Assembly: GCA_945860285.1 (NCBI GenBank)
Contig: CAMAQB010000028.1
Coordinates: 1 to 38,375 of the forward strand
Direction: 5' to 3'
Length of the DNA stretch: 38,375 bases
DNA from: Akkermansia muciniphila
GTDB taxonomy: Bacteria; Verrucomicrobiota; Verrucomicrobiia; Verrucomicrobiales; Akkermansiaceae
In this document: positions 11,829-38,375 of the stretch, piece by piece
Layout of the letters: each line of letters begins with the position of its first letter
Numbering within the stretch: the stretch's first letter is position 1
Position numbers and translations under genes: made by a program
Notes under the pieces: model-generated
Databases searched by the model: none
What the model saw: the letters and a program-made list of their open reading frames with translations, nothing else
Told to the model about the DNA's origin: nothing

Positions 11829-12644
11829 TTGCAAACGACATCGATTCATCCCAGCGCCATCATTTCACCCGCAGCCGTCATCGGCCAGAACGTGAAAATC
11901 GGACCCTTCACTGTCATCGACGGCCCCGCGTCCATCGGCGATGATGTCAACATCGACGGCCACGTGCTGATCCGCGGCCGCTGTACCATCGGCGCGCGCA
12001 GCCAGATCGGCTGGGGCAGCGTGATCGGCGCCGATCCCCAGGATTTGGGCTTCGACCCGCAAACCGACTCCGGGGTGATCCTCGGTGAAAACAACCGCTT
12101 GCGCGAATACGTGACCATTCATCGCGCCACGGTGCCAAATGCCAACACCATCATTGGCAACGACAATTTCATCATGACCGGTGTGCACCTTGGGCATGAT
12201 GTCGTGATGGGCAGCCACAACATTCTGGCCAACAACATTCTGGTGGCCGGACATGTGGTTTTCGGCGACCGCTGCGTTGTTGGTGGAGCCAGTGTGTTTC
12301 ACCAGTTCGTCCGCATCGGCGATTACGCCATGGTGCAGGGGATGTCTGGCCTGAGCCTCGATGTCCCCCCTTACTGCCTTGCATACGAAATCAATCGACT
12401 CGCATCGCTCAATGCCATCGGCCTCAAACGCGGTGGATTCAGCCCCGAGCAGCGCTCCGAAATCAAGGAAGCCTTCCGCCTGCTCCTCAATGGCGGCAAT
12501 CGCGAAGCGGCCTTGAAGGAAGCGGAGACCCGCACATGGGGCGCGGCCGCCGCCCTGCTGGTGGAAGCGGTGCGCCATCCATCCAAAAAAGGAATCCTCA
12601 CTTGCGTGCGACATCCCGAGCCCCCTGCCACCAACAACAGATGA
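11829..12644 (+). CDS. lpxA: acyl-ACP--UDP-N-acetylglucosamine O-acyltransferase LpxA
   Basis: Catalyses the first step of lipid A synthesis, adding a hydroxyacyl chain to UDP-GlcNAc in the cytoplasm. The protein is a left-handed beta-helix of hexapeptide repeats (VIGQNVKIGPF, TIGARSQIGWGSVIG and more) with the active-site segment TGVHLGHD (117-124), whose His123 matches the catalytic His125 of E. coli. A C-terminal helical domain completes the trimer fold. No ATG lies in frame upstream. I chose TTG 11829, which gives MQTTSIHPSAIIS, the usual LpxA N-terminus, and 271 residues against 262 in E. coli. Another in-frame TTG lies at 11793. The other lpx genes and fabZ, often neighbours, are not here. 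It overlaps the next gene by 4 bp. Confidence 0.95.
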   Translation: MQTTSIHPSAIISPAAVIGQNVKIGPFTVIDGPASIGDDVNIDGHVLIRGRCTIGARSQIGWGSVIGADPQDLGFDPQTDSGVILGENNRLREYVTIHRATVPNANTIIGNDNFIMTGVHLGHDVVMGSHNILANNILVAGHVVFGDRCVVGGASVFHQFVRIGDYAMVQGMSGLSLDVPPYCLAYEINRLASLNAIGLKRGGFSPEQRSEIKEAFRLLLNGGNREAALKEAETRTWGAAAALLVEAVRHPSKKGILTCVRHPEPPATNNR

Positions 12645-13249
12645 ATGCGCTCCATTTGCCCGACCAGGTCGGTGTGATGATCCTGCCGGACTGCGTGCTC
12701 TTTCCGCACGGCGGTCTGCCGTTGCGAATTTTCGAAGACCGCTATCGCTTGATGCTTCAGGATGCGATTGACGGCGATTGTCTTTTCGCTGTAACGCAGC
12801 AGATTTCTGAAGACTCGGCCGACCCGCAACAGTGCGCCGCTCCGGTGGGCACCATCGGCATCATCCGGGCCTCCCACGAGCAGGAGGACGGCACATCCCA
12901 TCTGCTGCTACACGGCATCATTCGTGTCAAATTCCTCGAATGGCTGGACGAAAAGCCTTATCCGGTGGCAACCATCCAACCGATCCACTCGGAATTCTTT
13001 CCGGCACACCAGAAAGCAGCGGCGACCAAAACCCTGCGCGGCTCGGTCGAAGATGCGATCAGAGGGTTGCCCGAAGAAGTCCAGAACGCAGTCATGGAAA
13101 TGATCCATCGCACCGACGACCCAGTTATCATTGCGGACATCGTCTCACAGCAATTCTTCCAGGATGTGCACATTCGCCAGCATCTGCTGGAAATTGAATC
13201 ACCGGCGGCACGGATATCATATCTTTGCAACGCTCTGCAGGGGATCTAA
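12641..13249 (+). CDS. Lon N-terminal (LAN) domain protein without the protease
   Basis: A 202-residue protein matching the substrate-recognition (LAN) domain of Lon protease, with no AAA+ or serine protease part. The hallmark start is VGVMILPDCVLFPHGGLPLRIFEDRY, read here in two parts: VMILPDCVLFPHGGLPLRIF, then EDRYRLM. A helical tail follows (about 125-202). The ATG at 12641 overlaps the lpxA stop (ATGA), so the two are translationally coupled. Stand-alone LAN proteins are common and their role is largely unknown; binding unfolded proteins is a family-based guess. The sequence after its stop holds the hairpin element starting at 13297. Confidence 0.85.
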   Translation: MNALHLPDQVGVMILPDCVLFPHGGLPLRIFEDRYRLMLQDAIDGDCLFAVTQQISEDSADPQQCAAPVGTIGIIRASHEQEDGTSHLLLHGIIRVKFLEWLDEKPYPVATIQPIHSEFFPAHQKAAATKTLRGSVEDAIRGLPEEVQNAVMEMIHRTDDPVIIADIVSQQFFQDVHIRQHLLEIESPAARISYLCNALQGI

Positions 13250-13286
13250 CATCACGCCTGATGGGGCACGCTCGCTTTCTCAAGGG

Positions 13287-13375
13287 AAAAAATGAAGCGG
13301 TCCGATCAGAATACCTAGGAAAAACCCAAAACCTAGTGCTAATTGATCGGACCGCCTGCTAGTCGCTCTGCGACA
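13287..13375 (-). ncRNA. candidate small RNA 1 with intrinsic terminator
   Basis: Read on the minus strand, a promoter (13381-13408) would start an RNA near 13375. It opens with a small hairpin GTCGC-AGA-GCGAC (13362-13374) and then a long hairpin. The outer stem is GCGGTCCGATCA with TGATCGGACCGC (12 bp, 13297-13308 with 13344-13355). The inner stem is CTAGG with CCTAG, and the loop is TTTTGGGTTTTT. A run of six T follows four bases after the stem (13287-13292). The RNA would be about 88 nt. No minus-strand gene lies immediately upstream that would need a terminator here. A matched element sits at 13556-13615. Function is unknown. Confidence 0.5.
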
Positions 13376-30530: not shown

Positions 30531-30848
30531 ATGAAGAGATATTCCACGTCGCCGACTGGAACTCCCGCTTCGCCGACTGGATATTCTGCTTCGCCGACTG
30601 GATATTCCGCTTCGCCGACTGAAACTTCTGCTTCACCAACTGGATATTCTGCTTCGCCGACTGGAAATCCCGTTTTGCCGACTGTAAATTCCGCTTCGCC
30701 GACTGAAACTTCTGCTTCACCGACCGGAACTTCTTCTTCGCCAACTGGAGCTACTGCTTTGAAGAGTGCATATTCCATTTTGGTGCAAACAGCAGCGATA
30801 CAGGCATCGGAAATCGAGCCACAGGGCGAGGAGGTGGGCCATGAGTAA
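30531..30848 (+). CDS. small repeat protein of unknown function, coding uncertain
   Basis: An ORF of 105 codons from ATG 30531 whose first 75 residues are about ten copies of a 7-residue unit close to ASPTGYS, followed by a non-repetitive tail (ALKSAYSILVQTAAIQASEI). It has no signal peptide and no recognised domain. It ends 8 bp inside the ArsR-type gene, which could couple the two. The same repeat is also open in two minus-strand frames, one giving a heptad coiled coil (FQSAKRN/IQSAKQN), so the true coding strand is not settled. It could also be a non-coding minisatellite. Confidence 0.35.
   Translation: MKRYSTSPTGTPASPTGYSASPTGYSASPTETSASPTGYSASPTGNPVLPTVNSASPTETSASPTGTSSSPTGATALKSAYSILVQTAAIQASEIEPQGEEVGHE
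30549..30758. repeat. 21-bp tandem repeat, ten units
   Basis: Ten contiguous 21-bp units, consensus close to TCGCCGACTGGATATTCTGC plus a final T. Units 4-5 and 8-9 share GACTGAAACTTCTGCTTCAC, pointing to a block duplication of four units (84 bp). Unit length is a multiple of three, so expansions keep every frame. There are no spacers, which rules out CRISPR. Confidence 0.92.
30829..30835 (+). promoter_or_regulatory. strong Shine-Dalgarno for the ArsR-type gene
   Basis: AGGAGGT lies 5 bp before ATG 30841. Most genes in this window lack such a site. It decides the start of the regulator and argues against the longer in-frame extension to 30766. Confidence 0.7.
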
Positions 30849-31146
30849 CCTTCCGCCATCGTCGATCCCCTTGGAAAAGCTGGCGCAATTGTTGAGCGAC
30901 CCGGCGCGATGGGCGATTCTCCTTGAGTTGGCGAAGGGTGAGCCGTTACCGGTGAAAGAACTGGCGCGGCGGGTGGGGCGCACGCCGGACATGACATCCA
31001 AACACATGGCGGTTTTCCGCGCTGCCGGCGTAGCGGTCGTCGGCTATGGCCGCCTCTATCAACTCGCGCCCGGCCTGCGTCCTGAACCAGGAGCGACGAC
31101 GCTGGATCTAGGCCACTGCCTTCTGAAACTAGACACACGAAAGTGA
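30841..31146 (+). CDS. ArsR-type winged-helix transcription regulator
   Basis: 101 residues. The winged helix is clear: KLAQLLSDPARWAILLELAK (about 13-32), LPVKELARRVGRTPDMTSKH (recognition helix, about 36-55) and a wing GVAVVGYGRLYQL. ArsR-family proteins are usually small dimers that repress DNA until an inducer binds. No Cys pair for metal binding is seen in the usual alpha3 or alpha5 sites; the only Cys is near the C-terminus (HCLLKL). The target is unknown. It follows the 21-bp tandem repeat and overlaps its ORF by 8 bp, so repeat number could influence its expression. Confidence 0.8.
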   Translation: MSNLPPSSIPLEKLAQLLSDPARWAILLELAKGEPLPVKELARRVGRTPDMTSKHMAVFRAAGVAVVGYGRLYQLAPGLRPEPGATTLDLGHCLLKLDTRK

Positions 31147-31389: not shown

Positions 31390-34182
31390 ATGGCACTTCA
31401 TCCAGAATTCCCTACATCACCCTACGCTCCGCTGATCCCGGCGCAGCGCTGGTTTCCTGCTGCCGAGGAACTGCGCAACACAGCATACGAAAAACTTCTC
31501 CCGCCGCTGGTCTCCAGGATTCGCGAGGAGGTTCATGCATGGCGCATGGCAGGTTACCCCGGAGCATCACAGACTTCTCACTCTCTCCTCCACTGGTGGT
31601 TTGATACGCAGCATCTTCTCGAAACCGCAGACGGCACTCTGGCTCCTTTTCAATACTACTATGCCCAACGTGAGGCCGTAGAGACGGTCATCTGGCTTTA
31701 TGATGTCCGCAAGGCTCGCGATAAATTTGATTTGCTGCGCTTCGATGCATCAGGCGCAGTATCGCATGGCATGTTTGCCGAGGACTGGCCGCGCTACGTT
31801 TTGAAAATGGCCACCGGCGCGGGGAAAACCAAGGTGATTTCCTTGCTTATCGCTTGGAGCTTTTTTCATAAACTCTACGAGCCTGGTTCCACTCTCTCAC
31901 GGAACTTTCTTGTCATTGCTCCGAACATCATTGTACTTGACCGCCTCCGCGCCGACTTCGATGGGCTGAAAATCTTCTTCAACGATCCCATCCTGCCCGA
32001 CAACGGCCACCAGGGACAAAACTGGCGCGATGATTTCCAGCTTACACTCCATATCCAGGATGATGTGCGTGTTCTCCGCGACACGGGAAACATCTTCCTT
32101 ACCAACATCCACCGCGTCTTCCTCGGTGACGTTCCCGAGTCATCGTTGGATGACGATGACCTGCGCGACTATTTCCTCTCCGATGCCTTCGGTGCAAAAC
32201 CTTCCGGCAAAACTACCGATAGTAAAACCGACCTTGGCGAGATCGTGCGGGAAATCGAGGAACTCGCGGTTTTCAACGACGAGGCCCACCACATCCACAA
32301 TCCCAAGATGGCTTGGTTCAAAAATATCCAGGACATCCATCACAAGATGCTCCAGAAGGACTGCCGCCTCACCCTGCAAATCGATGTCACCGCCACGCCG
32401 CGCCATGACAACGGAGCCATCTTCGTCCAAACCGTTTCCGACTATCCGCTCGTCGAGGCCATCTACCAGAACGTGGTGAAGCACCCAGTCCTGCCGGATG
32501 CGGCCAGCCGCGCAAAACTTCACGATAAAAAGACCGCCATCTTCTCCGACAAATACGCCGACTTCCTCGCCCTCGGCGTCGAGGAATGGAGCAAGAGCTA
32601 CGCCGAACACGAAGCACTCGGCAAAAAGGCTGTTCTCTTTGTCATGGTTGATGACACGAAGAACTGTGATGAAGTCGGCGAATACCTTCAGAAAATCTGC
32701 CCTGAACTGAAGGATGCTGTTCTCACCATTCACACCAAAAACAATGGCGAAATTTCCGAAGCAGCCTCGGGAAAAAACAAGGAAGAACTTGATCTGTTGC
32801 GCAAACAATCCAACGAGATTGACTCTTGGAAATCACCCTTCAAAGCGATCGTCTCGGTGCTCATGCTCAAGGAGGGCTGGGACGTGAAAAATGTCACTAC
32901 CATTGTTGGCCTCCGCGCCTATGCCGCGAAGTCGAACATCCTTCCCGAGCAAACTCTCGGCCGTGGCTTGCGTCGAATGTATTTCGGTAGTGATCAACGT
33001 GAAACTGTTTCGGTCATGGGCACACCAGCCTTCATGGACTTTGTCGAATCCATCGAAAACGAAGGTGTCACCTTTGATCACGTGCCGATGGGTGCGGGTG
33101 CGCAACGAAAGGATTCGCTGATCGTCGAAATCGATACTGAAAACAAGGACAAAAATCTATCCGATCTCGAAATCCCGATCCCGCGTCTCAGTCGGCGCTT
33201 TCAACGCGATTTCAAAGACCTCAACGACTTGAACCCCGCCACTTTGGGAAATAAACGACTCCCACTGAAACCCTTCACACCGGAAGAATCCCGCGAGATC
33301 GTTTTCAAGACGATGCTCGATTCCGAAATCCACCACACCATCCATCTTGATGGATCGGGACCAGCGGACTACCGATCGGTCGTTGCCTTCTTCGCCCGCC
33401 AGTTGCTCAAGGACCTCCGGCTCGTCGGTGGCTACGACGTGCTCTATCCGAAGGTCCGCGACTTCATGCGCTTCCATCTCTTCAGCACCAACGGTGCGAA
33501 AGATGCCAGCCCAGGGCAACGCCCTGGGTCCGATGTCCCAAGTAGTCCGAGCACTGAAAGTGCGACACAATCCGCGGTGGACCTCGAAGACCCCGTTGTC
33601 CTGCGCAATCTCTCCGAGCCGGATGTTGGAAAAGTCCTCTACGATTCATTCAAGGCAGCGATGAACGCCCTCACCATTGCAAATACCGGAACCACCCGCA
33701 TTGAGGATTACATTCGCTTGCAAAACACTCGTCCCTTTCGCACGGAAAATCGTCCTTTCCTTGCCGCAAATAAATCCATCTTCAATAAAATTGTGGGCGA
33801 GGTGAATTCCGGCGGATTCGAGCTGAAGTTCGCGTCATTCCTGAACGAAGCAGTGGACGTGATGGCATTCACCAAGAACTACCTCGCGATTGGCTTCAAG
33901 TTCGATTACGTCAAAGCCAATGGCGATCTCTCCAACTACGTCCCCGACTTCATCGTCCGCGACACGCAGGGCACCGTCTGGATCATTGAAACAAAAGGCC
34001 GCGAAGAACTTGACCTGCCACAGAAAATGGAGCGCTTGCGCCAGTGGTGTGCGGATGCCACCGCCGCCGATGAAAATGGCACGCGCTACGATTTTATCTA
34101 CGTAGATCAAGCCAGCTTCGTGAAACACACACCAACAACATTGGCTGACCTCATCGTTAGCTTCACGGAATACAAGGCCTGA
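31390..34182 (+). CDS. type III restriction enzyme, Res-type helicase/nuclease subunit
   Basis: 930 residues. An SF2 helicase motor is joined to a PD-(D/E)XK nuclease, the layout of type III Res subunits that move along DNA and cut foreign DNA with the Mod subunit. Motifs: Walker A ATGAGKT (141-147), DEAH (297-300), TATP (334-337), the later helicase motif LGRGLRRMYFG, and the nuclease PD at 852-853 with ETK at 867-869 (YVPDFIV ... IIETKGRE). The N-terminal 120 residues (WWFDTQHLLE, YYYAQREAVETVIWLYDV) are typical of a Res-like subfamily. A palindromic insert encodes the SPGQRPG segment (about 707-713). It precedes DUF3800 and the Mod gene lies 2.8 kb downstream, whereas classical systems have mod directly before res. 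Confidence 0.9.
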   Translation: MALHPEFPTSPYAPLIPAQRWFPAAEELRNTAYEKLLPPLVSRIREEVHAWRMAGYPGASQTSHSLLHWWFDTQHLLETADGTLAPFQYYYAQREAVETVIWLYDVRKARDKFDLLRFDASGAVSHGMFAEDWPRYVLKMATGAGKTKVISLLIAWSFFHKLYEPGSTLSRNFLVIAPNIIVLDRLRADFDGLKIFFNDPILPDNGHQGQNWRDDFQLTLHIQDDVRVLRDTGNIFLTNIHRVFLGDVPESSLDDDDLRDYFLSDAFGAKPSGKTTDSKTDLGEIVREIEELAVFNDEAHHIHNPKMAWFKNIQDIHHKMLQKDCRLTLQIDVTATPRHDNGAIFVQTVSDYPLVEAIYQNVVKHPVLPDAASRAKLHDKKTAIFSDKYADFLALGVEEWSKSYAEHEALGKKAVLFVMVDDTKNCDEVGEYLQKICPELKDAVLTIHTKNNGEISEAASGKNKEELDLLRKQSNEIDSWKSPFKAIVSVLMLKEGWDVKNVTTIVGLRAYAAKSNILPEQTLGRGLRRMYFGSDQRETVSVMGTPAFMDFVESIENEGVTFDHVPMGAGAQRKDSLIVEIDTENKDKNLSDLEIPIPRLSRRFQRDFKDLNDLNPATLGNKRLPLKPFTPEESREIVFKTMLDSEIHHTIHLDGSGPADYRSVVAFFARQLLKDLRLVGGYDVLYPKVRDFMRFHLFSTNGAKDASPGQRPGSDVPSSPSTESATQSAVDLEDPVVLRNLSEPDVGKVLYDSFKAAMNALTIANTGTTRIEDYIRLQNTRPFRTENRPFLAANKSIFNKIVGEVNSGGFELKFASFLNEAVDVMAFTKNYLAIGFKFDYVKANGDLSNYVPDFIVRDTQGTVWIIETKGREELDLPQKMERLRQWCADATAADENGTRYDFIYVDQASFVKHTPTTLADLIVSFTEYKA
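33510..33528. repeat. palindromic element inside the res gene
   Basis: CCCAGGGC-AAC-GCCCTGGG is a perfect 8-bp stem within the coding sequence, encoding SPGQRPG in a Ser/Pro-rich, non-conserved-looking stretch (about residues 704-727). It keeps the frame. It looks like a REP-type palindrome that settled in a flexible linker. Confidence 0.6.
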
Positions 34183-34183
34183 T

Positions 34184-34975
34184 ATGCACCTCGTTTATTA
34201 TGATGAATCCGGTGATGATGGCTTTCCCGCCTATGCCTCGCCGCTTTTTGTGCTCAGTGCGGTTTATTGTCCTGCGCTCGATTGGAGGGAAAACTTTGAT
34301 ATCATCGCTGGCTTCAAACGCCAACTTTCCAAGGATTTCAATCTGCCCTTCCAACTGGAAATCCACACCCGTGAGTTGTTGCTCAATAAAAAACCGTATG
34401 CCCCATTGAGGCTTACTGGTGCAGAGCGCACCGAAATTGTCATGCGCTTTTGCCAAATCGCTGCCCAGTTATCCTTACGCGCCATTTCCACAGTTGTTAT
34501 TAAGCCATGGATCAAAAAATCTGAGTTCCCCGTGCTGAACCGTGCGCTTTCTTACTCCGTGAATCGCATCGAGACTGATCTACAAGGCTCATCAGCCAAT
34601 CGATTTTTAATCATTACCGACGACGGCAGAGTTGCCAAGATGCGTGCCACCACGCGGCGCATGCAGAAAATCAATTACGTTCCCTCGCAATACGATAGCA
34701 CACCCTATCAGCGAGATATCCGTCATTTGATTGAAGACCCGTTGCCGAAAGATTCCAAAGAGTCTTATTTCATCCAATTGGCCGATATGTTGGCATTCCT
34801 ATTTTATGCTCACACCGCTCATGTGACTGGCCTGGCCTCCCTACCACACCGCTCGCCGCCAGAGTTGAATCAGAACTTTATCGTTCGCTGCTTGGAGTTG
34901 CTCAAGCCTATGCTCAATTTGAAAGCTAGTTCTACACACCCGTATGGTCTCGTTCGTATTCCCAGCAACCCTTAA
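34184..34975 (+). CDS. DUF3800-domain protein
   Basis: 263 residues covering the DUF3800 family. The two hallmark motifs are present: YYDESGD at 5-11 (acidic Asp7 and Glu8) and QLAD at 198-201. A central acidic segment, ITDDGR (about 143-148), could supply a further metal ligand. The pattern suggests an RNase-H-like metal-dependent nuclease, but this is a prediction and the family is not biochemically settled. DUF3800 genes are often found in defence regions. It starts 1 bp after the res stop, so it is co-transcribed with res. Base composition is more AT-rich than in res, suggesting a separate origin. Confidence 0.85.
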   Translation: MHLVYYDESGDDGFPAYASPLFVLSAVYCPALDWRENFDIIAGFKRQLSKDFNLPFQLEIHTRELLLNKKPYAPLRLTGAERTEIVMRFCQIAAQLSLRAISTVVIKPWIKKSEFPVLNRALSYSVNRIETDLQGSSANRFLIITDDGRVAKMRATTRRMQKINYVPSQYDSTPYQRDIRHLIEDPLPKDSKESYFIQLADMLAFLFYAHTAHVTGLASLPHRSPPELNQNFIVRCLELLKPMLNLKASSTHPYGLVRIPSNP

Positions 34976-35153
34976 AACAAAACGCCATCTCCCTTTCAGG
35001 AAACGGCGCTTTGAAGTTCACCACCTACCTCCTATACGGGAGTTGAGTGGTTCGGGGGGAATTTGGCATCGGCCTCAGGCACTGTCAAGGTCATTTTTTC
35101 CAAGTCCCATTAATCCCGTAACGCTATTCTGCGAGGAAAGAAGATAATGCTTT

Positions 35154-35182
35154 TTGTCAGATTTCGTAGATTCGCTTACCCT
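35154..35182 (+). promoter_or_regulatory. possible promoter for the ATPase gene
   Basis: TTGTCA (35154-35159) and TACCCT (35177-35182) are 17 bp apart, about 27 bp before the ATG at 35209. The -10 box is poor. If real, the ATPase gene is separately transcribed inside the restriction locus, which fits the 233-bp gap after DUF3800. Confidence 0.3.
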
Positions 35183-35208
35183 ACCGCATAAATCACAGAT
35201 TGTTAGAT

Positions 35209-36951
35209 ATGATTATTAAACTCAAAATCTCGCGCTTTAAAGGCCTTCGCTCTGCTGAAATTGAACTTGGTGGCAATGTTGTATTTATTGGTCCCAATAA
35301 CTCAGGCAAGTCAACTGCGCTGCAGGCATTGACACTGTGGGATGCGGGATGGCGCAGATGGGCGGAGAAATGGGAAAAACAAGATGCGAATGGGAATTTT
35401 GTAAAACGCCCCAAGACCAAATCAGGCGTGACAATCAACCGCCGTGATTTACATGCGATTCCCGTGCCCACCGCAAAGCTATTATGGCATGATTTGCATA
35501 CACACGAGACCGACAAAGACAAAAAAACGATCAATGTTTATATGCAGGTCGAAGTTGAGGGTGTTTCATCTACGGGACCATGGTCCTGCGGCATTGAGTT
35601 CTATTATGCGAATGAAGAGTCACTCTACTGTCGCATGATCGGTTCTTCTGAGCAACACCTCCCTCAAGAGGTTTACCAACATCGTGTCGTTTTTTTACCG
35701 CCGATGTCAGGACTGGCAGACCGAGAATTTCGTAAGGAAGCGGGTGAAATCCGCATGCTTACTGGACAAGGACAAACCGCACAGGTCCTAAGGAATCTCT
35801 GTTGGCAACTGTATTCAAGTGAAAACAAAACACCTTGGATTCGCTTGATTGGCCACATTAAAGATCATTTTTCTGTAACTTTATTGCCTCCTGTGTACGA
35901 TCCGGTCAATAGCAGTCTGTCTCTCTCCTATAAAGATCATAAGGGGACAGAACTGGATATATCCAGTTCTGGCAGAGGTTGTCAGCAAGTTACTTTGCTT
36001 CTCTGTTTTCTGTTGCAGAATCCGGGAGCCATCCTTCTTCTTGATGAACCTGATGCCCATTTGGAGATTTTACGCCAGCGTGATATTTACTCATTGCTAA
36101 CCGAAATCGCTGCCGAACAGCAATCTCAAATCATTGCAGCCAGCCACTCTTCCACTGTAATGCAAGTGGCTGGTGAAAGCGATGTCCTTGTGGCTTTCCT
36201 TGGTGCACCCCATCGGGTTGATACACGTGCTCGCCAAAACCAAGTAAAAAAAGCGTTAGAATCCATCCCGCTCTCTGATTTTTACCTCGCCCAGCAAGCC
36301 GGGTGGATGTTGTACTTGGAAGGTACCACCGATTTGGCAATCTTACGAAAGCTGGCAATACGAAAAAAACATGCTGCTGCCGCAATACTGGCAGGGCGCG
36401 TTCCATTGATTTGCCCAGGCAGCAATAAGCCGGGAGATGCGCGTTCCCATTATGAGGCCATGCGTGAGGCCATGCCGGGCTTGCCTGGATTAGCCATTTT
36501 CGACCGACTGCCTAATCCTGACATGCCACTCTCCGTCATGACAGGTTTATGCGAATTGATGTGGAGACAGCGGGAAATCGAAAATTACTTGGTCACTAAA
36601 GAGTCCCTTCTAGCCTACGTGTCCTCGGGCCTAGATTCAGATGACCTGTTCTCGCTGGCAGAGAAGGAAAGACGCACACGTTTCATGACCGAGTGCATCG
36701 CTGAATTGGAACAAGCTCTCGCTGTTACTCGCAAACCGTCACCATGGAGCGCAGACATCAAAGTAACAGACGATTTTTTGGATCCTCTCTTTGTGAACTA
36801 TTATCAGAAACTGGGCACTCCTCAGCTCACCTACAAGAGAGATTACCACGGGCTCGCGGATGTCATTCCGCTGGAACAACTTATTCCAGAAATTGACACC
36901 GTTCTCGACGCTGTAGTGACTGCTCATCAAAACGCAATTCCTGCGCAATAA
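35209..36951 (+). CDS. ABC/SMC-like ATPase fused to a TOPRIM-like domain
   Basis: 580 residues from ATG 35209. The N-terminal part (about 1-365) is an AAA15/OLD-type ATPase: Walker A GPNNSGKS (28-35), a degenerate signature SSGRGCQQ, Walker B ILLLDEPDAHLE and an H-loop ASHSS. The C-terminal part (about 365-580) has LYLEGTTDLAILRKLA, LAIFDRLPNPD and REIENYL, features of TOPRIM or DUF4435-type nuclease domains. Characterised relatives include OLD nucleases and PARIS defence, in which AriA (ATPase) and AriB (TOPRIM) are sometimes one protein. The role is therefore probably anti-phage, but the exact family is open. It is more AT-rich than res and mod, lies 233 bp after DUF3800, and ends 15 bp before mod. 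Confidence 0.8.
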   Translation: MIIKLKISRFKGLRSAEIELGGNVVFIGPNNSGKSTALQALTLWDAGWRRWAEKWEKQDANGNFVKRPKTKSGVTINRRDLHAIPVPTAKLLWHDLHTHETDKDKKTINVYMQVEVEGVSSTGPWSCGIEFYYANEESLYCRMIGSSEQHLPQEVYQHRVVFLPPMSGLADREFRKEAGEIRMLTGQGQTAQVLRNLCWQLYSSENKTPWIRLIGHIKDHFSVTLLPPVYDPVNSSLSLSYKDHKGTELDISSSGRGCQQVTLLLCFLLQNPGAILLLDEPDAHLEILRQRDIYSLLTEIAAEQQSQIIAASHSSTVMQVAGESDVLVAFLGAPHRVDTRARQNQVKKALESIPLSDFYLAQQAGWMLYLEGTTDLAILRKLAIRKKHAAAAILAGRVPLICPGSNKPGDARSHYEAMREAMPGLPGLAIFDRLPNPDMPLSVMTGLCELMWRQREIENYLVTKESLLAYVSSGLDSDDLFSLAEKERRTRFMTECIAELEQALAVTRKPSPWSADIKVTDDFLDPLFVNYYQKLGTPQLTYKRDYHGLADVIPLEQLIPEIDTVLDAVVTAHQNAIPAQ

Positions 36952-36966
36952 ACCACCCATTCCACC

Positions 36967-38375
36967 ATGTCCCGTCCATCCACTGAACACTACGATCTCA
37001 CCGAGACCGAGAAGCGCGATCTCATCAAGCTCATCGAGCAGGGCAAGCCGCTGCCGGAAAAATACCGCTTCATGCTCTTCGCCGACAAGCGCGAGGTGGA
37101 GCTGGTGTGGAATGGCAAGACCCGCGAGGTCTGCACCGCCATCCTGCCCTTTCAGACGCTCGAACACATCGACGAGCCGCGCAAGGAAATGGAGCGCGGA
37201 CTTCAGTCCGCCACCCAAATGGACCTGCTCGATACCTCCGGCCGCCAGACCAAGGGCTGGACCAACAAGCTCATCTGGGGCGATAACAAGCTCATCCTCT
37301 CCTCCCTCAAAAGCGGGGCCCTGCGCCGTCAGATCGAGGACGCCGGTGGCCTCAAGCTCATCTACATCGATCCCCCCTTCGACGTCGGCGCGGACTTCTC
37401 CATGGACATCGAGATCGGCGGCGAAACCTTCCACAAGGAACCCAACCTCCTCGAACAAATCGCCTACCGCGATACCTGGGGGCGGGGCGCGGATTCGTTC
37501 ATCAGCATGATCTATGAGCGGCTGATTCTGATGCGGGATCTGATGCACCCGGAGGGGAGCATCTACGTGCATTGCGATTGGCGGGTAAATGCACACGTCC
37601 GCTCTGTGCTCGACGAGGTGTTTGGGTCGGAGAACTTTCTAAATGAAATTCTGTGGCGACGTAGAACGAATACCGTCAAGGCGGTTTCGCAGAAATTTTC
37701 AGTCAATACGGACACAATCTTTCTCTACGCCCGTGACCGGAACTCGTATCAATTCAACATCCAATACGGCGACTACCCGCCGGAATACTACGAGCGATTC
37801 AACCAAGAAGATAAATATGGCAAATACTATTGGAACGTGATGGCGACCTACTCGCAGGAACGTCTCAAGAAGCTTCAAGAAGAGGGAAAAGTTAAATTTT
37901 CAGAGGGCGCTAAATTCCCTCGGTTCAAACAATACCTTCACGAACTCAAAGGCCGTCCTATTGAAAACATTTGGGACGACATCGACATGATTAACGCAAT
38001 GGGGTCGGAGCGTTTGGGTTATTCCACCCAAAAGCCCGAAGCACTTGCTGAGCGCATCATTAAAGCCAGCTCTAACGAAGGCGACCTAATTGCCGACTTC
38101 TTCGGCGGTTCCGGGACCACCGCCGCCGTCGCCGAAAAGCTCGGGCGCAAGTGGATTACCAGCGATCTCGGCAAGTTCGGCATCCACACCACGCGCAAGC
38201 GGTTGATCCAGGTGCAGCGGGATTTGAAGACGGCGGGCAAGCCGTTCCGCGCCTTCGAGGTGCTCAACCTCGGCCGCTACGAGCGCCAGGCCTACCTCAA
38301 CGTCGGCGGGCGGCTCAGCGGGAAAAAGAAGGAACAAGCCCTCGCCCGCAAGGAACAGGAATTCCGGGAATTGAT
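36967..38375 (+). CDS. type III DNA adenine methyltransferase (Mod), 3' end cut by the window
   Basis: A continuous frame of 469 codons from ATG 36967 to the window end with no stop, so the protein is longer than seen. It is a beta-class N6-adenine methyltransferase: the catalytic motif DPPF (135-138, in YIDPPFDVGADF) precedes the S-adenosylmethionine-binding motif FFGGSGTT (378-385), followed by RKWITSDLGKFGIHTTRKRL. Such Mod subunits also supply sequence recognition to Res. Its target-recognition part probably lies in about 190-340, where composition turns more AT-rich (37640-38080). The catalytic motif is DPPF rather than DPPY, a known variant. The gene starts 15 bp after the ATPase gene. 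Confidence 0.92.
   Translation, partial: MSRPSTEHYDLTETEKRDLIKLIEQGKPLPEKYRFMLFADKREVELVWNGKTREVCTAILPFQTLEHIDEPRKEMERGLQSATQMDLLDTSGRQTKGWTNKLIWGDNKLILSSLKSGALRRQIEDAGGLKLIYIDPPFDVGADFSMDIEIGGETFHKEPNLLEQIAYRDTWGRGADSFISMIYERLILMRDLMHPEGSIYVHCDWRVNAHVRSVLDEVFGSENFLNEILWRRRTNTVKAVSQKFSVNTDTIFLYARDRNSYQFNIQYGDYPPEYYERFNQEDKYGKYYWNVMATYSQERLKKLQEEGKVKFSEGAKFPRFKQYLHELKGRPIENIWDDIDMINAMGSERLGYSTQKPEALAERIIKASSNEGDLIADFFGGSGTTAAVAEKLGRKWITSDLGKFGIHTTRKRLIQVQRDLKTAGKPFRAFEVLNLGRYERQAYLNVGGRLSGKKKEQALARKEQEFREL

Follow-up and report, generated by a model that had tools for sequence, protein, structure and literature searches.

A type III-like restriction-modification locus of Akkermansia muciniphila with accessory genes and an antisense hairpin RNA at its res/mod junction

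The stretch of DNA analyzed here (the window) is an entire contig (G000:C28, 38,375 bp) of a 3.70-Mb genome assembly of Akkermansia muciniphila; from position 31390 to the contig end, it carries a type III-like restriction-modification (RM) locus. Four open reading frames (ORFs), all on the + strand, encode Res (31390..34182), a DUF3800 protein (34184..34975), an ATPase fusion (35200..36951), and Mod (36967..38375, truncated by the contig end). A preliminary description of this DNA had named these four co-oriented genes, which is borne out by the ORFs and by Pfam matches above cut-off for all of them. Res and DUF3800 are separated by 1 bp, the ATPase and Mod by 15 bp, and DUF3800 and the ATPase by 224 bp (34976-35199), a gap that holds a structured RNA on the opposite strand. 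Type III RM enzymes, such as EcoP1I and EcoP15I, consist of Mod plus Res, and their cleavage is ATP-dependent and requires two inversely oriented sites. With these systems the locus shares a β-order N6 methyltransferase and a helicase Res with a PD-(D/E)xK-type motif; it differs by the res-first order found in part of its subgroup, and between res and mod it holds a pair of extra genes and an antisense RNA.

Res (930 aa) matched Pfam ResIII with 50.6 bits, above the cut-off, and contains the motifs GAGKT (residue 143) and DEAH (297) of an SF2 helicase, followed by PDF (852) and ETKG (867); its earlier characterization as helicase plus PD-(D/E)xK nuclease thus holds, the nuclease part by motif alone. 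The dedicated models matched weakly (256 bits to NCBIfam NF046055, the BPTD_3080 family, under its cut-off of 800; 2.5e-18 to the PADLOC type III model), and a relative in the PDB was not found by sequence at E 0.001. Mod was recognized as a β-order N6 adenine methyltransferase by Pfam N6_N4_Mtase (145.2 bits, above cut-off), by PADLOC MTase_III (9.4e-96), and by the position of DPPF (135) before FGGSG (379). The 469 aa encoded in the window (36967-38373) run off the contig, the end of which shares 149 identical bases with the start of contig C50 (reverse strand); there, Mod extends to ∼757 aa, and the next + strand ORF lies ∼0.6 kb beyond it. Another partial Mod, at the end of contig C35 of the same genome (L248), has 87% DNA identity to the window Mod over 326 bases and is, judged by this identity, a second related methylase copy. 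Within res, an Acido-Lenti-1-like element (RF01687, 34.3 bits, gathering score 37) was observed at 33484-33528 (−), around residues 699-713, and the matches to five other Res homologues are split at ∼699/727-730. The genome contains ten RF01687-type matches, of which five exceed the gathering score, with 150 of 609 candidates scored; because of these ten matches in one genome, the Acido-Lenti-1 "RNA family" may act as a dispersed repeat.

Homologues of Res (at E 1e-20) occur in 14 of 387 genomes of the phylum (here and below counting the window's own genome), on two rhizobial plasmids (2 of 88 plasmid records), and on seven viral contigs. This amounted to 24 places, namely 15 from the phylum including the window, 2 from plasmids, and 7 viral, of which five (L024, L031, L033, L034, and L038) did not show both genes; among those counted, L036 shows the Mod end alone, L037 has Mod in pieces, and L039 a 58-residue piece of Res. 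One or more ORFs lie at the res/mod junction in 8 of the 18 nonwindow loci showing both genes: DUF3800 (L029), KilA-N (L032 and L167), DUF4357 (L035), an MNT nucleotidyltransferase plus HEPN pair (L036), a 291-aa ORF (L039), an ATPase (L040), and a 170-aa ORF (L170). The MNT-HEPN pair, a known toxin-antitoxin type, sits between the Mod end and Res in genome G114 (12608-13370). A second type III-like locus in the window's own genome (L249, G000:C99, 3167-8579) has the order Mod-Abi_2-Res, with Abi_2 matching at 172 bits.

Each of the two extra genes of the window was also encountered at such a junction by itself. Genome G260 carries Res-DUF3800-RNA-Mod (Res 73%, DUF3800 61%, and Mod 61% identical), and an uncultured proteobacterium (L088) carries Res-ATPase-Mod (67, 59, and 62%), which is the window order minus DUF3800, with abutting genes (4-bp overlap, 2-bp gap). 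The order is the same in L092 and is Mod-ATPase-Res in L040 and L073. The preliminary description had stressed that res comes first; this is true of the window and not peculiar to it, as L028, L029, L030, and L088 share it, and within the same Res family mod is first in L026, L027, L032, and L167-L170, and likewise on the rhizobial plasmids. Its proposal of a composite defense system stands insofar as DUF3800 (G260) and the ATPase (L088, L092, L040, and L073) recur as restriction accessories, not as one module. The full order Res-DUF3800-ATPase-Mod was encountered in the window alone, and both extras also occur elsewhere without RM genes, which had been named as signs of a chance insertion; yet each recurs at the junction. 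Because they do so separately, chance insertion of DUF3800 and the ATPase as one unit was ruled out. Because each recurs independently there, together with other toxin-type genes and KilA-N, gene order argues for the res/mod junction being an accessory slot and not the site of one chance insertion.

The DUF3800 protein (263 aa) matched its Pfam family (PF12686) with 65.1 bits against a cut-off of 21, and nine acidic residues are invariant in eight aligned sequences (D7, E8, D11, E59, E130, D146, E184, D185, and D201). An AlphaFold2 model built from eight sequences (pLDDT 78) predicts an RNase HII-like fold: the first 18 rows of the VIA list are all RNase H2/HII/H3 entries (Z 9.2-7.6). Foldseek E-values were weak (0.026 at best), and by sequence the PDB contains no relative at E 1. 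Relatives were also found in plasmid records (four, 26-33% identity) and in phage records (15, 29-31%, all from Gordonia and Rhodococcus phages). DUF3800 has been described as an RNase H fold with links to noncoding RNAs and to type V-A2 and VI-F CRISPR loci, as far as the available text of these papers goes (PMC10910872 and PMC12669027); no description of DUF3800 inside a restriction locus was found in the portions available of the DUF3800 literature searched, which did not extend to the original DUF3800-RNA paper.

The RNA core in the 224-bp gap comprises 35 nt (35019..35053, −), lies antisense and 3′ of DUF3800, and reads GAACCACTCAA-N14-GTAGGTGGTG. The search pattern derived for it (GAACYACTSAA-N14-GTMGGTGGTG) was present in 5 of the 387 genomes, and the reversed-pattern control in none. 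Four of the five sites are directly 3′ of DUF3800 and antisense to it, and the RNA accompanies DUF3800 in four of the five phylum genomes with this DUF3800 (G324 is without the pattern); G289 has the pattern without DUF3800 within 1.5 kb. On viral contigs, the RNA was found at 19 loci. DUF3800 is adjacent in four of them (L183, where it is broken, L185, L186, and L193), a 57-aa remnant lies beside the RNA in L188, and 14 have no DUF3800 within 2.5 kb (L177-L182, L184, L187, L189-L192, L194, and L195), including the near-duplicates L177/L189, L184/L187, and L180/L192. Because the contigs end near the RNA in L180, L187, and L195, DUF3800 may be cut off there. A separate search for DUF3800 on viral contigs gave nine loci, with the RNA in L201, L203, L204, and L206 (the contigs of L186, L185, L193, and L183), a variant RNA in L205, a contig ending at the gene in L202, and no RNA in L207-L209. 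Next to a broken DUF3800 gene, the RNA is intact in L175 and L183.

The element has the features of a structured RNA and is flanked by promoter-like and terminator-like signals. Because the search pattern fixes the outer stem, the inner four pairs alone test covariation; over 20 distinct cores, all four covary, with 27 double-change cells versus 6.7 after shuffling (0 of 500 shuffles as high) and a score of 0.435 versus 0.119 for shuffled and 0.02-0.13 for slid controls. Of 22 distinct upstream regions, 15 hold a σ70-like site (at least 9/12) that ends 6-8 nt ahead of the core, versus 0.8 expected from mononucleotide shuffles. That of the window (TTGACA-16-CCAAAT, 35061..35088, −; 9/12) ends 7 nt ahead of the core and was not listed by a generic promoter scan with stricter requirements for the second hexamer; in L179, the site matches 12/12. 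The RNAs carry T-rich tails, and in the window, a terminator-like hairpin follows downstream (34978..35013, −), which a generic terminator scan of the window did not list; RNA and hairpin together (78 nt, 34976-35053, −) fold with −38.8 kcal/mol (z −6.25).

The window RNA has no Rfam match (best weak candidate Trans44_sRNA, 15 bits vs gathering 108), and its being a known Rfam family was rejected; the models of DUF3800-associated RNAs gave no match in the window at gathering or at E 5, nor at gathering in L029, L174, L175, 16 of the 19 viral loci, or L198. Rfam DUF3800-VII (RF02967) is also a small RNA antisense at the DUF3800 3′ end; the window RNA is shorter and of different sequence. In L067, DUF3800-VII occupies the same antisense position, at a locus that also has an ATPase relative. 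In L176 and L208, hairpins on the antisense strand show the inner loop TGAA...AGTAG, of which L205 has a variant (strict-form background 37 of 20,000 windows), and L207, L209, L066, L067 (both genes), and L072 failed this test. Among phage records, the RNA of L181 matched one unannotated record and the window RNA gave a 17-base chance-level match alone (E 4); the L181 RNA had no match among plasmid records.

The ATPase ORF comprises 583 aa from a TTG at 35200; aligned homologues begin at the ATG at 35209, which is the likely true start. Its ATPase part matched AAA_21 (63.6 bits) and AAA_15 (60.7 bits), both above cut-off, and in PADLOC NsnB best (6.3e-20), followed by AriA (4e-19). With an AlphaFold2 model from 30 sequences (pLDDT 81.4), Foldseek retrieved the OLD nuclease 6p74 as the best match (E 4.6e-10), along with retron PtuA, PtuA, and GajA. 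The VIA list from the full-length model covers residues 1-356; a match to AriA (8ux9_B; Z 15.8, rmsd 4.7, 251 aligned, residues 2-336) is not specific because PtuA and SMC heads tie with it. In the C-terminal half, E374, D435, and E461 are invariant, the first two throughout alignments of 13 and of 30 sequences, and the second D of the DxD motif is L in the window protein. The gene encodes an OLD/PtuA/AriA-type ABC ATPase fused to a putative, probably TOPRIM-like effector domain. The window's genome has no match to DUF4435 (PF14491) or OLD-like_TOPRIM (PF20469) at E 0.001.

Relatives of the ATPase were found in 18 of the 387 genomes (21 nonwindow places), and plasmid records gave three weak matches. 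Examined were 17 phylum loci, leaving out L079 (internal stops) and weak matches in G385, G061, and G074, and a wider set of 80 named loci kept from at least 314 relatives in genome_contigs. RM genes are located within 5 kb in 15 of the 80 (651 kb of flank), whereas farther out (457 kb of flank) they were found at two loci, each of which is also one of the 15; of the 17 phylum loci, 10 have RM genes near the ATPase. Four of the 15 (L110, L121, L126, and L139) rest on own-locus seed proteins (Pfam-matched), so that 11 remain without them, and three of the 10 (L066, L072, and L080) rest on such seeds as well; L065 and L107 seem to be one contig, so that one RM case is shared by both sets. The genes adjoined are of Eco57I-type, DUF1156, type I HsdM/HsdS/HsdR, and type III methylase kinds. 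Among 91 immediate same-strand neighbors, the 25 commonest families included N6_N4_Mtase (3), ResIII (3), N6_Mtase (2), and DUF1156 (2), versus ResIII (2) among those of 98 control genes located at a distance of over 6 kb; the commonest neighbors are oxidoreductases of Poribacteria (L090, L128, L150, L157, and L158, without an intact ATPase ORF, were left out). Being a modest excess over the control, these counts were discarded as strong evidence of an RM link.

Taken together, we favor, at roughly even odds, a type III-like RM operon whose res/mod junction is a slot for backup effectors. Judged by the protein families, Mod would mark the DNA and Res would cut unmodified phage DNA. The ATPase fusion would sense that the cell is infected or that restriction is lost, and would then damage the cell through its C-terminal domain, as in PARIS- and OLD-type systems; a role as a backup for blocked restriction is suggested because of the analogy with PARIS (PMC9122126) and with the OLD-ABC/TOPRIM dyads of BREX loci (PMC12839542), to the extent that the available text of these sources describes them. 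DUF3800 would be an RNase HII-like nuclease restrained by the adjoining short hairpin RNA, acting once this RNA has run short or been displaced, as upon host shut-off or locus loss, and the two modules would have been acquired separately. The antisense RNA, its intactness beside broken nuclease genes, and the stand-alone viral RNAs would fit an RNA-controlled toxin, and the DUF3800-RNA pair is probably toxin-antitoxin-like. The fuller version is tentative and on balance doubtful: a ∼40-nt antisense hairpin would silence the RNase HII-like toxin, which would be released when phage take-over or locus loss stops the RNA supply, and the stand-alone phage RNAs with their strong promoters would be antitoxins or decoys, that is, counterdefense directed at DUF3800.

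A number of observations weigh against these assignments. DUF3800 was present in none of the 80 ATPase stretches, which, with the four-gene order confined to the window, contradicts the earlier notion of DUF3800 and the ATPase as one added module; among the 17 phylum ATPase loci it was present in three, all from genome G158. (These are three different loci, L066, L067, and L072, each with an ATPase relative and DUF3800, two in L067.) In L175 and L176, DUF3800 has no Res or Mod match in the 15.5-kb stretch covered. In a Legionella transposon study (PMC7811196), the available text counts a DUF3800 gene of unassigned function with the genes essential in particular strains, a group that includes several antitoxins; that the DUF3800 gene itself is essential fits a toxin poorly. 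Without the hairpin, the fold of the window RNA core (39 nt) is only moderately more stable than that of its shuffles (z −2.44). As for the supposed ATPase/TOPRIM fusion, the ATPase is well founded and the TOPRIM half weakly so: none of 22 C-terminal domains matched DUF4435 or Toprim Pfam models at E 1, and hhalign to five OLD Toprims (Prob 13.9, E 0.002; DUF3800 control Prob 0.3) aligned the LYLEG..D (glutamate) motif alone. Furthermore, 65 of the 80 ATPase loci, the nearest relative (L087, 64%) among them, have none of the tested RM genes within 5 kb. On the ATPase tree (82 rows, FastTree alone), the RM label, carried by 20 of 79, takes 16 changes versus a shuffled mean of 17.9, and 78-81 of 500 shuffles were as low. 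Left out of it were ten of the 80 loci, namely the five without an intact ORF, L145, L165, L166, and, because of stops, L108 and L164, and also L065, L070, and L076-L080. Because the RM label is hardly clustered, the ATPase gene seems, from this tree, to move into and out of RM loci.

Alternatively, the accessories may be passengers, the junction tolerating selfish or stabilizing (toxin-antitoxin-like) genes that do not respond to restriction. This is a serious possibility, toward which we nonetheless do not lean. Both the variety of genes at the junction (MNT-HEPN, Abi_2, KilA-N, DUF4357, DUF3800, and ATPase) and its emptiness in 10 of the 18 other loci (L026, L027, L028, L030, L037, L168, L169, L171, L172, and L173) are in keeping with passengers, as is the occurrence of the modules on their own, whereas three observations speak against them: in L088 and L073, the genes lie on the same strand and join tightly with overlaps, the choice of defense-type genes is recurrent, and relatives of the ATPase adjoin methylase genes of type I, Eco57I-type, and type III kinds.

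Instead of a toxin pair, DUF3800 and its RNA might also form a small element, mobile or carried by phages, in the manner of a transposon or a moron, with the RNA as element end or regulatory signal. The viral contigs and G289 with RNA and no DUF3800 nearby, and the DUF3800-RNA pairs present in viral contigs, are what such an element would produce. We consider it unlikely, as the promoter-like site is at a near-fixed place and T-rich tails follow, as the window's genome has a single exact pattern match, and as intact RNA by broken DUF3800 (L175 and L183; remnant in L188) is expected if loss of the nuclease, not of the RNA, is tolerated. That the RNA serves DUF3800 as guide or cofactor and that the pair is an accessory nuclease of interference, a role put forward for the DUF3800 of Cas12a2 loci and one that the reported CRISPR links of this RNase H fold (PMC10910872 and PMC12669027, in their available text) could suggest, is improbable, given that the variable part is a covarying stem and not a free spacer and that RNAs occur without DUF3800 nearby.

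Backup of RM by an ATPase is not without precedent. As described in the available text of PMC9122126, PARIS is a second line after RM, triggered by the antirestriction protein Ocr, and AriA-AriB, including single-gene fusions, shares with the window an OLD-type ABC ATPase linked to a putative TOPRIM-like domain; the window ATPase differs in lacking a DUF4435 match and in sitting in a restriction operon, and membership in PARIS was ruled out on the missing DUF4435 (AriB) match. In the available text of PMC12839542, OLD-ABC/TOPRIM dyads of BREX loci are called backup suicidal effectors, and these and BREX-related TOPRIM-linked OLD-ABC effectors reside, like the window ATPase, in methylase-helicase defense loci, there BREX and here type III RM; DUF3800 goes unmentioned in that paper. 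PrrC/EcoprrI, likened here from a partial description, is a killer enzyme genetically linked to an RM enzyme, as proposed for the window, and activated by a phage antirestriction factor; PrrC differs in being an anticodon nuclease and in belonging to a type I locus. ATPase backups in RM and BREX loci have therefore been published in kind, and what is new is a DUF3800-RNA module placed within a type III locus.

Upstream of the operon, degenerate ∼21-bp repeats (GCTTCGCCGACTGGAtATTC-like) were seen by eye at 30540-30760 (+). They adjoin a small ORF (30766-31146) that we take to resemble an ArsR-type regulator.

If the favored reading is correct, the res/mod junction of type III systems would be a plug-in site for second-line effectors. 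DUF3800, known from CRISPR loci and beside noncoding RNAs, would gain a role that can be tested, together with a defined RNA partner of 35 nt, one that viral contigs also carry on its own.

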